Of a stretch of 34,505 bases of DNA, positions 29,754 to 32,464 are shown piece after piece. The position numbers and the translations under genes are program-made. Position 1 is the stretch's first letter. Each line of letters opens with the position of its first letter. The notes beneath the pieces are model-generated. The model was given only the letters and a program-made list of their open reading frames with translations, was not told the origin of the DNA and ran no database searches. Source of the DNA: Verrucomicrobiota bacterium (GTDB lineage Bacteria > Verrucomicrobiota > Verrucomicrobiia > Chthoniobacterales > SZAS-18); NCBI GenBank assembly GCA_025353105.1, contig JANXRG010000043.1, positions 1 to 34,505 on the forward strand, in the 5' to 3' direction.

Positions 29754-30572
29754 ATGAGCAAGCGCGAGCGACCGAAACGTCGTGAGAAACTCCGGGCGCA
29801 AGCCGCCGCCCTGCCCGGCATCGGTGCCGCGCCGAAGACGCGTCGCGTCGGCTCCCGGGCCGCCACCCCTCCCGAGCGCCGGTCCATCGTCGTGCCGACC
29901 CGTTGGGTGAAGCTCATTGTCGGGATCTTTCTTCTTCCTCCTTGCTGGCTGTTGAGCTCGGCGTTCTTCAAGGAGTTTGCGCGCGTCACGATCAGTGGCG
30001 CGTTCTGGGCCACCGAGGAGTTCTATTTCTTCGGCCTCGGCGCGGTGCTGTGGGGCATCGCGTTCTTTGGCTTGCCACGCCCGCTCTGGCTCTACGTCTT
30101 CGGCCATGAGTTGACCCACGCGCTGTGGGTGTGGTTGCACGGGGGTCGGGTGCGCGAATTCAAGGTCGCGCGAGCCGGCGGTTACATCGTCACCGACAAG
30201 ACCAATTTCTGGATCGCGCTCGCGCCCTATTTCTTCCCGCTCTACAGCATCGCGCTCGTGCTCGCGTGGGCGATCGTGGGGGCGTTCCTCGAGATCTGGC
30301 CGTACCACCGCTGGCTGTACGCGGGCGTCGGCGCGACTTGGGGCTTCCACGTCACCTTCATGGTCTCAATGATAAAACGTGGTCAAAGCGACCTGACCTC
30401 GCACGGCACATTTTTTTCCCTCGTGTTCATCTACCTTGTGAACCTGGCGATCCTTTCGTCCCTGCTCGTCCTCGCCTGCCCCGATGTCACCGGCATGGAA
30501 TTCCTCCAGCGCCTCCTCCACGACGCGGTGCGCGCCTCGTCGAGGATTCGCGCGCTGACGGGATGGTGGTGA
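29754..30572 (+). CDS. Putative membrane zinc metalloprotease, M50-like
   Basis: A 272-residue protein with a basic N-terminus (MSKRERPKRREKLRAQAAAL), then about five or six membrane helices. A FGHELTHALW sequence places HExxH at residues 118-122 beside a hydrophobic stretch, as in M50/M50B intramembrane metalloproteases. The later polar segment before the last helix (RGQSDLTSHG) is where a third metal ligand (Asp) would be expected, but the family's usual NxxPxxxxDG is not clear. So it is either an M50-like protease or an inactive relative. It is unlike any neighbour in function. The ATG at 29754 follows the leader repeat. Confidence 0.7.
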   Translation: MSKRERPKRREKLRAQAAALPGIGAAPKTRRVGSRAATPPERRSIVVPTRWVKLIVGIFLLPPCWLLSSAFFKEFARVTISGAFWATEEFYFFGLGAVLWGIAFFGLPRPLWLYVFGHELTHALWVWLHGGRVREFKVARAGGYIVTDKTNFWIALAPYFFPLYSIALVLAWAIVGAFLEIWPYHRWLYAGVGATWGFHVTFMVSMIKRGQSDLTSHGTFFSLVFIYLVNLAILSSLLVLACPDVTGMEFLQRLLHDAVRASSRIRALTGWW

Positions 30573-30593: not shown

Positions 30594-31187
30594 TCACGCA
30601 CAGCACTGGACCCCGAGTTGGATGGGCGGGCAGGACACGGAGCCGTAACTGCAAAACACGCAACAGTCGCCTTGCTTTGGTCTGAGATGCGCGTGGCAGC
30701 CGCGACATTCATAAAAGAACCAGCAGGCGTCGGTGGGCATCGTTTCCTCGGACTGCAATCCACATTCCGGGCAGGTAATAATGGAATGCAACATCGATTC
30801 CTGACTCCCCGGCACGCCGCAAGACCTGGCCCGCGCAGCCCAACGATTCCACAAGGTCGCAAGGAGCAAGCCGCCGAGTCCCCCGTAAAGAGCCGCCGTC
30901 GAAGAATCGCGGTAGAACACGTATGCGAGTGCCGCCGCACTGAGAACCCCGAGAAGCAATGGACCAATGGAACGGTGCCGGCGAAAGCCCACGGCCAAGC
31001 CGACCACAGTGAGAGCGACAAAGCCCTGAAATATATAGAGCACGATCCCCTCGAACTGACCCAGAGCGCCAAGTCCCACCGCGGCGCTCAAACCTGCAAA
31101 AAGCGGGAAGCAACACGGTGCCGCGATGGCGGCGAGGAGCGAGCCCACGGTTCCGACCCGGTCAAGCGTCGAGAGAAGACGATTCAT
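30594..31187 (-). CDS. MerC-like membrane domain fused to a GDCCVxC cysteine-rich domain
   Basis: A 197-residue protein. The first half (about residues 12-115) is a MerC-type integral-membrane domain with the cysteine pair in AAPCCFPLF (Cys25, Cys26) near the first helix and about four helices. The last 59 residues form a soluble cysteine-rich domain with CPECG, CRGC, then the GDCCVFCSYG motif at 173-182 and SCPPIQ, matching the GDCCVxC family, some members of which carry selenocysteine. Here all positions are Cys. A metal or redox role at the inner membrane is a fair inference. It converges on the M50-like gene. The base composition looks less G+C-biased than its neighbours, so it may have been acquired. 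Confidence 0.85.
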   Translation of the reverse strand: MNRLLSTLDRVGTVGSLLAAIAAPCCFPLFAGLSAAVGLGALGQFEGIVLYIFQGFVALTVVGLAVGFRRHRSIGPLLLGVLSAAALAYVFYRDSSTAALYGGLGGLLLATLWNRWAARARSCGVPGSQESMLHSIITCPECGLQSEETMPTDACWFFYECRGCHAHLRPKQGDCCVFCSYGSVSCPPIQLGVQCCA

Positions 31188-31247: not shown

Positions 31248-32021
31248 TCAATACATCACCCGCCGCAGGTAAAGCCCGTCGGCGGGCGCCTGGTAATGGT
31301 TCTTTGCCACACGCGGATGGACGAGCAATCGCTGCATCCACTCGAGGGTCGCCTTTCCTTCCGCCACGCGGACGACGGCACCGGTCATGAGGCGCACCAT
31401 CTTGTAGAGAAATCCGTCACCTTCGAACTCGAGCGTGAGCAGCGCACCGCGACAGGCGAACGTCGCGCGGCGGATCGTGCGCACGGTCGTCGACGGCGCG
31501 CCGCCGGGACCGCGGTTCGCGGCGAACGCGGCGAAATCGTGCTTCCCGACAAAGCAACGGAGGGCGGACTGCAGGGCGTCCCGATCGAGTGGCGCGTGGA
31601 CGTGCCAGGCGCGGTGCAATTCAAACGGGTTCATCGCGGGCGCGTTCCAGATCCGGTAGCGATAGACCTTTCCCCGCGCGTCGAAGCGCGCGTGAAACGC
31701 GCCCATGACAAATCGCGCCGCCTTCACCCGGATTTCCGGCGGGAGGTGCGCATTGAGCGGCTTTGGCCAGTCGCTTGCCTTCGCCAGCGCCCCGCTCGTC
31801 CCATCGACATCCGCGTGCGCGATCTGCGCGAGCGCGTGCACCCCCGCGTCCGTGCGACCGGAGCCCTGCACCATCACGCGCCGTCCACCGCACAGTTTCG
31901 AGAAGGCGGCTTCCAAATGGCCCTGCACCGTTCCCTTCTTGCTCGCCTGAATCTGCCAGCCCGCGAACGGCGTGCCATCGTACGCGACCTCGATCCGCAA
32001 TCTGCGCGTGCCGGCCGCCAT
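31248..32021 (-). CDS. truA: tRNA pseudouridine(38-40) synthase
   Basis: Modifies tRNA positions 38-40. It is 257 residues from ATG 32021 (a TTG at 32030 would add three). Motifs: RLRIEVAYDGTPFAGWQIQA at the N-terminus, catalytic Asp58 in GSGRTDAGVHALAQIAH, VYRYRIWNAPAMNPF and the C-terminal FLYKMVRLMTGAVVRVAEGK. It is the last gene of the tight manC-ruvX-truA minus-strand unit; the ruvX stop is five bases upstream. Confidence 0.96.
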   Translation of the reverse strand: MAAGTRRLRIEVAYDGTPFAGWQIQASKKGTVQGHLEAAFSKLCGGRRVMVQGSGRTDAGVHALAQIAHADVDGTSGALAKASDWPKPLNAHLPPEIRVKAARFVMGAFHARFDARGKVYRYRIWNAPAMNPFELHRAWHVHAPLDRDALQSALRCFVGKHDFAAFAANRGPGGAPSTTVRTIRRATFACRGALLTLEFEGDGFLYKMVRLMTGAVVRVAEGKATLEWMQRLLVHPRVAKNHYQAPADGLYLRRVMY

Positions 32022-32026
32022 CGGGA

Positions 32027-32464
32027 TCAATTCGCGGCCTTGTAGGCCTCGCGGTCGAGGTAGGTCTGCAGGATCATCTGGGCGGCGACCTGGTCGATCA
32101 TGCTCCGGCCCTGCTTCACGTTACGACCGCTCGCGTGCAGTGCCTTTTGTGCCGCGACGGTCGAGAGCCGTTCGTCGACGAAGCTCACCGCGCAGGGTGC
32201 AATCCGGGATTTCAGCTCCTCCGCAAACGCCCGCACCTTGATGGAAGCTGGTCCATACGTCCCATCCATGTTGCGCGGCAGGCCGACCACGACCATGCGC
32301 ACGCTCTTCGCGGCAACGACCGTGGCGATCCGATCCAACGCGATCTTCGTGTCGCGCGCCGGCACCGTTTCGAGTGGATGCGCGAACATCCCGAGTTCAT
32401 CGGAAATCGCGAGGCCGATGCGGGCTTCGCCGTGGTCAATGCCGAGTGCGATGGGCAGGCTCAT
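32027..32464 (-). CDS. ruvX: Holliday junction resolvase-like protein / 16S pre-rRNA nuclease, YqgF family
   Basis: A 145-residue RNase H-fold nuclease with ALGIDHGEARIGLAISDELG at the start, VGLPRNMDGTYGPASIKVRA, the VSFVDERLSTVAAQKAL segment and a C-terminal SMIDQVAAQMILQTYLD, all typical of YqgF. Such proteins process the 5' end of 16S rRNA and may act on DNA junctions. It starts three bases after the manC stop and ends just before truA, so the three genes should be co-transcribed. Confidence 0.94.
   Translation of the reverse strand: MSLPIALGIDHGEARIGLAISDELGMFAHPLETVPARDTKIALDRIATVVAAKSVRMVVVGLPRNMDGTYGPASIKVRAFAEELKSRIAPCAVSFVDERLSTVAAQKALHASGRNVKQGRSMIDQVAAQMILQTYLDREAYKAAN

Follow-up and report, generated by a model that had tools for sequence, protein, structure and literature searches.

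A gene in the window, by which we mean the whole 34,505-nucleotide stretch of Verrucomicrobiota contig JANXRG010000043.1 analysed here, codes for a MerC-type membrane protein that carries a cysteine-rich GDCCVxC domain as its C-terminal tail (30594..31187, minus strand). We consider, with moderate confidence, that this protein is a four-helix carrier of the MerC superfamily with a built-in cytosolic GDCCVxC thiol acceptor for a thiophilic metal, most likely Hg(II), and that it works without MerA. The fusion to a carrier, together with the operon linkage of GDCCVxC to MerT and MerP, gives this 'hypothetical' domain a testable role.

The gene is a single open reading frame without interruption, with 197 codons and an ATG start, and both parts that a sequence-only reading of this DNA had recognised in the one polypeptide were recovered in Pfam and NCBIfam searches. 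Residues 9–115 (30843..31163; all coordinates of this gene are on the minus strand) match the Pfam MerC family (PF03203) with 52.9 bits, against a cut-off of 27.6, over profile positions 1–107 of 108, a match on which the reading had made its case depend. The NCBIfam MerC equivalogs NF033784 and NF010318 ('organomercurial transporter MerC') were missed (52.2 bits vs 140 and 53.7 vs 170) and, since these scores are far under the cut-offs, we regard the protein as a distant MerC and not as an equivalog. The fusion is the sole MerC-family match in its genome. A linker defined from the alignment (residues 116–134, including C123; 30786..30842) leads to the GDCCVxC domain (residues 135–190; 30618..30785), which matches NCBIfam NF041374 with 104.1 bits against a cut-off of 40. 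Two cysteines, C25 and C26, form a vicinal pair in the motif APCCFP of the first membrane helix (31110..31115), and twelve more, the number that had been estimated for the tail, are found from residue 123 on (C123, C139, C142, C155, C161, C164, C175, C176, C179, C186, C195 and C196). They include the GDCCVFC motif (residues 173–179, with C175, C176 and C179; 30651..30671) and a C-terminal Cys-Cys pair (residues 195–196; 30600..30605).

The fusion architecture is rare yet widely scattered. Another 23 loci, spread over Verrucomicrobiota, Bacteroidota, Methylococcales and Omnitrophota, encode the same full-length fusion, each time in one open frame, which makes 24 loci in four phyla with the window copy and the later-found L086, L200, L217 and L218 included. 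Full-length relatives in the GTDB species genomes belong to Spartobacteria (58–59% identity) and to Flavobacterium, Chitinophagaceae and other Bacteroidota (43–46%); those of Methylococcales, Crenothrix polyspora among them, are 42–47% identical and one from Omnitrophota 45%. Two of the Flavobacterium carriers, F. saccharophilum DSM 1811 (L007) and F. succinicans (L005), are in culture. Profile searches of 395 Bacteroidota genomes matched either part in 102 and the full-length fusion in three, and two of 387 evenly drawn Verrucomicrobiota genomes carry the fusion. These loci, found by the search that the sequence-only reading had proposed, bear on the objection which it had itself raised, namely that a sequencing or assembly frameshift has merged two neighbouring genes. 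Such artefacts do occur, as exemplified by one ORF in a relative (L083, see below) and by two frame-shifted plasmid copies of GDCCVxC, but an error confined to the window could not recreate the fusion at 23 other loci with an identical continuous frame and a conserved linker position, and therefore we reject the artefact for the family and consider its probability negligible.

Several other candidate fusions were set aside or are of a different kind. The MerP-GDCCVxC ORF of L083 (1471–1989, minus strand), from a relative of the same order, is probably not a second fusion type, as it joins two genes by an apparent frameshift; because its MerP C-terminus looks frame-shifted, reading LPKRLRTRAILPPST where MerP has ...ATANAGYPST, it was left out of the fusion counts. 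Where a long open frame precedes GDCCVxC in Pseudomonadota, it is DNA read out of frame and not a fusion. In L038 (2746–3186, plus strand), GDCCVxC shares one ORF with a short segment of two helices that contains a Cys-Cys motif, and Pfam gives no MerT match. The trees of the two parts do not agree on whether there was one fusion event or several: the GDCCVxC tree, built from few columns, needs 10 label changes, 3 of them forced by well-supported branches, and a single change is forced by the MerC tree.

Across 20 aligned fusions, C26 of helix 1, the GDCCVFC motif and the cysteine residues of CPxCG, CxxC and the CP after GDCCVFC do not vary. C25 and the terminal cysteine are nearly invariant (C196 is kept in at least 90% of the fusions), and a CxxC is present in the linker of some Bacteroidota homologues. 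The GDCCVxC domain has nine invariant cysteine residues, all of which are present in the window copy, and the three of the motif are invariant in 59 domains. The low-confidence AlphaFold model of the whole protein (mean pLDDT 61.6) places helices at residues 2–21, 27–38, 46–71, 74–92 and 97–124, which is consistent with the four predicted membrane passes provided that helices one and two make up one broken span. The mean number of lysine and arginine residues over 20 homologues is 2.20 in the N-terminus, 0.15 in loop 1, 2.05 in loop 2, 0.10 in loop 3 and 3.00 in the linker, a clear positive-inside pattern from which both ends (N-in/C-in), and hence the GDCCVxC tail, are predicted to be cytosolic. 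Typical standalone GDCCVxC proteins begin, as judged by eye, a few residues ahead of the domain, so there is no space for a signal peptide.

The GDCCVxC domain modelled alone from 59 sequences reached a pLDDT of 85.6, and its predicted fold is zinc-ribbon-like; the structural matches are mostly of this type (aRF1, MCM, S27e and LysW) and weak (Z of 3.1 or less, Foldseek E of about 1). A fold search with the whole-protein model retrieved nothing significant, and a sequence search of the PDB gave zero matches. The CPxCG and CxxC motifs may hold a structural zinc, which would leave C155, C175, C176, C179, C186 and the terminal Cys-Cys pair as spare thiols.

In the window, the neighbours of the fusion are efp, truA, ruvX and a ManC-like gene, with truA, assigned with Pfam (31248..32030, minus strand), upstream on the same strand after a gap of 60 bp; there are no mer-operon genes among them, and this genome has no MerT and no MerA over the cut-off. 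The order ManC-like/ruvX/truA is kept in three relatives of the same genus or family (G001, G003 and G006), and a fourth (G002) keeps ruvX-truA, in all cases without the fusion; a search of the six nearest genomes (G001–G006) detected no GDCCVxC gene. Moreover, GC3 is lower in the fusion (0.68) than in any other called gene (0.73 to 0.84). The conserved run without the fusion in relatives and this low GC3 suggest that the window copy was acquired laterally. Convergent with the fusion, at 29754–30572 (plus strand), we noticed a gene for a zincin-like membrane protein with a HELTH motif and sub-threshold matches to DUF3267/M50.

GDCCVxC was identified in 101 of 398 sampled Pseudomonadota genomes (about a quarter), and the gene neighbourhoods of its standalone form point to Mer-type carriers. 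A MerT/MerP-type gene lies within 5 kb at 30 of 50 distinct standalone loci, directly upstream at 26, and ars-type genes, mostly for an ArsR regulator, are present at 21. The gene order is merR-merT-merP-GDCCVxC in the annotated plasmid pRA2 (Tn5563; L090, 2870–4201), and GDCCVxC likewise comes after merR-merT-merP in a Methylophaga plasmid; in a Rhodanobacter plasmid it follows a merP-like HMA gene and precedes an ars cluster. In Sphingobium and Leisingera it is preceded by a MerT-family gene or by a small ORF that lacks annotation but has a CC motif like that of MerT, and at one Sphingobium locus (L067) an alkylmercury lyase gene, MerB (81 bits in Pfam), comes after MerT-GDCCVxC. The Sulfuricella gene is inside an ars operon, and ArsR-MerTP-GDCCVxC operons are present in Bacteroidota. 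In a member of Limisphaerales (L016), MerR, MerC and GDCCVxC are separate genes, the last two adjacent, which is the window protein in its unfused form. Since standalone GDCCVxC already accompanies Mer-type carriers, the MerC-GDCCVxC fusion joins existing operon partners. The suggestion of the sequence-only reading that the fusion would give a clue to the role of GDCCVxC agrees with this linkage; that the role was 'unknown' was overstated, as the protein is annotated within mer operons.

None of the 17 fusion genomes examined has MerA over the cut-off, and the best sub-threshold MerA-like proteins that were inspected are devoid of the C-terminal cysteine pair of MerA. Among genomes with standalone GDCCVxC it was found in only 4 of 55 (absent from 51), and in none of 20 genomes without GDCCVxC, a small control, the whole comparison being uncorrected for kinship; a large survey reported MerA in 7.8% of genomes (PMC8261052). 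A 448-amino-acid MerA-like neighbour in L067 was not counted as MerA, the sole match over the cut-off in that genome lying elsewhere. With MerA in so few GDCCVxC genomes, GDCCVxC is, within these limits, not a mere MerA accessory, and the question arises of how these cells would render imported Hg(II) harmless.

In the mechanism that we propose, the carrier would use the helix-1 pair C25/C26 to import a thiophilic ion, most likely Hg(II); MerT and MerE need the cysteine pair of their first membrane helix to transport Hg(II) (PMC5715351). The metal would then be handed to those conserved thiols of the tail that are spare (C155, C175/C176/C179/C186 and perhaps the terminal Cys-Cys pair), where it could be stored, or relayed to an efflux pump or a different cytosolic thiol; in this way, one chain would do the job of MerT/MerP and a separate GDCCVxC protein in operons, usually without MerA. 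We infer the identity of the metal, its direction, the hand-over and its fate; an importer without MerA could be harmful, and the linkage to carriers leaves the direction either way. An exchange of metal between the MerC part and the cysteine-rich tail, as put forward in the sequence-only reading, is partly favoured by the position of MerT/MerP directly upstream of standalone genes, by the annotated plasmids and by the predicted cytosolic tail, but some of the neighbourhoods are of Cu/Ag and ars types.

The neighbours of the fusions, which the same reading had advised to list, are indeed diverse. A MerR-type gene overlaps the fusion ORF by 4 bp in L003 and precedes it in L020, and the best models for these two regulators include Hg-MerR, yet under the equivalog cut-off. 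Two copies in one Bacteroidetes genome (L014 and L200) are in or beside ars genes, and no metal gene is among the assignable neighbours of the window copy, L004, L010, L013, L017 and L021. As mer-, Cu/Ag- and ars-type neighbourhoods all occur, soft thiophilic metals are the common factor. A MerR or mer context favours Hg, and in Bacteroidota the CopA, Cus and multicopper-oxidase genes beside the fusion speak for Cu/Ag; against a Hg carrier role are the Bacteroidota fusions in CopA/multicopper-oxidase or Cus clusters, and not in mer operons, the two copies with ars genes, the window copy without a metal gene among its checked neighbours, and the MerR scores under the cut-off. The main rival, which applies most to the copies of Bacteroidota, is the handling of Cu(I)/Ag(I), in which the MerC fold would carry the ion and the tail would buffer it and pass it to a P1B ATPase or a Cus pump, which we consider rather unlikely. 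In L218 the fusion is flanked by a gene for a copper-translocating P-type ATPase (TIGR01511, 582 bits), itself preceded by an HMA/AraC regulator, and by a multicopper oxidase gene, and in L217 the order is a long ORF (CusA type by position), CusB, fusion and P-type ATPase, but the latter enzyme fits the cadmium family better than the copper family by score. HMBD, DUF3347, CusB, CusA or OEP genes adjoin fusions in L002, L005, L007, L012 (CusA) and L015 (CusB with HMBD), and HMBD, DUF3347, haem-binding, RND and OEP genes are near the Flavobacterium fusions. Nevertheless, several fusions have no copper genes nearby, the carrier is homologous to MerC, and standalone GDCCVxC keeps company with MerT/MerP, MerR and once MerB. 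Resistance islands often contain both copper and mercury genes.

The second rival, which we judge improbable, is that the tail is redox or structural, keeping the cysteine residues of the carrier reduced or docking a partner and never holding the transported metal. The GDCCVxC family can carry selenocysteine (PMC2398784; PMC13188914), often the mark of a redox site, genes for thioredoxin or a pyridine-nucleotide oxidoreductase are near the L003, L019 and pEMTOL01 copies, and the zinc-ribbon-like prediction, on its weak matches, would suit a structural tail. However, the most consistent neighbours are metal carriers and not redox enzymes, and the conserved cysteine residues of GDCCVxC exceed the four required by a zinc ribbon.

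The protein can be compared with several known systems. It resembles Tn21-type MerC in its Pfam match across the full domain, and in the MerC tree a branch with full support leaves the fused MerC parts and Tn21-type MerC on one side. It differs in its vicinal CC of helix 1 (APCCFP), at the place of the CxxC of Tn21-type MerC (CAGCFP; the Omnitrophota fusion L020 has CPACFG), in its added GDCCVxC tail, in its equivalog score below the cut-off and in the absence of a mer operon. Another 'MerC' subfamily of Bacteroidota (L186–L194), with C..HC in helix 1 and a His-rich loop, is well apart from the fused type, and its members are perhaps not mercury transporters. The GDCCVxC protein is normally free-standing, with about 70 amino acids, whereas in the window it is the C-terminus of a membrane carrier and contains cysteine only. 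The Bacteroidota MerTP operons also have the carrier directly followed by GDCCVxC, but this carrier is MerT with a C-terminal HMA/MerP domain and GDCCVxC is separate. The merR-merT-merP-GDCCVxC locus of Tn5563 likewise pairs a Mer-type carrier with GDCCVxC, in a transposon without merA, although with separate genes and with MerT/MerP in the place of a fused MerC. The mer locus of Tn5563 was termed defective in a description of p10265-KPC, the gene list of which does not include the GDCCVxC gene (PMC4785139).

We tentatively extend this reading, as a possibility that we hold more doubtful than the role proposed for the fusion itself, to GDCCVxC in general, which would be the cytosolic endpoint of a widespread detoxification without reductase: Mer-type carriers would import Hg(II) or another thiophilic ion, GDCCVxC would sequester or relay it with no reduction by MerA, and the MerC fusion would be the single-chain form. 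If so, 'defective' merRTP loci such as that of Tn5563 would be complete systems, and the merA-less loci of this kind that recur on clinical plasmids would be re-read as possibly functional. Our literature search, which covered few subscription journals, found no paper naming GDCCVxC, its place in mer operons or the fusion.

The use of selenocysteine by some GDCCVxC proteins, mentioned in the sequence-only reading, is in agreement with the literature, where NF041374 corresponds to the 'hypothetical protein GOS_B' selenoprotein family (PMC13188914), first reported in 2008 from marine metagenomes with 11 selenocysteine and 125 cysteine forms and without functional evidence (PMC2398784). It does not extend to the aligned fusions or to the stop-containing Pseudomonadota copies that were inspected: an in-frame TGA at the motif is absent from all 20 aligned fusions, which have cysteine instead, and three Pseudomonadota GDCCVxC matches with in-frame stops proved to be a terminal stop, a degraded copy and a frameshift. 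Two plasmid copies considered as selenocysteine candidates were also rejected, both being frameshifts; these are unannotated, frame-shifted GDCCVxC genes of Ensifer and Variovorax plasmids (L094, 3900–4240, and L095, 3900–4260, respectively), the Variovorax copy lying downstream of merTPCAB. Finally, a family of about 200 amino acids with the motif LVCxAAPxIGCGS, which neither Pfam nor NCBIfam matches, is a recurrent third partner, either free beside MerC-GDCCVxC, after MerT-MerP-GDCCVxC, or C-terminal on a 424-amino-acid MerTP; examples are L014 (4297–4980, plus strand), L083 (809–1435, minus strand) and the C-terminal half of an ORF in L022 (3831–5105, plus strand).
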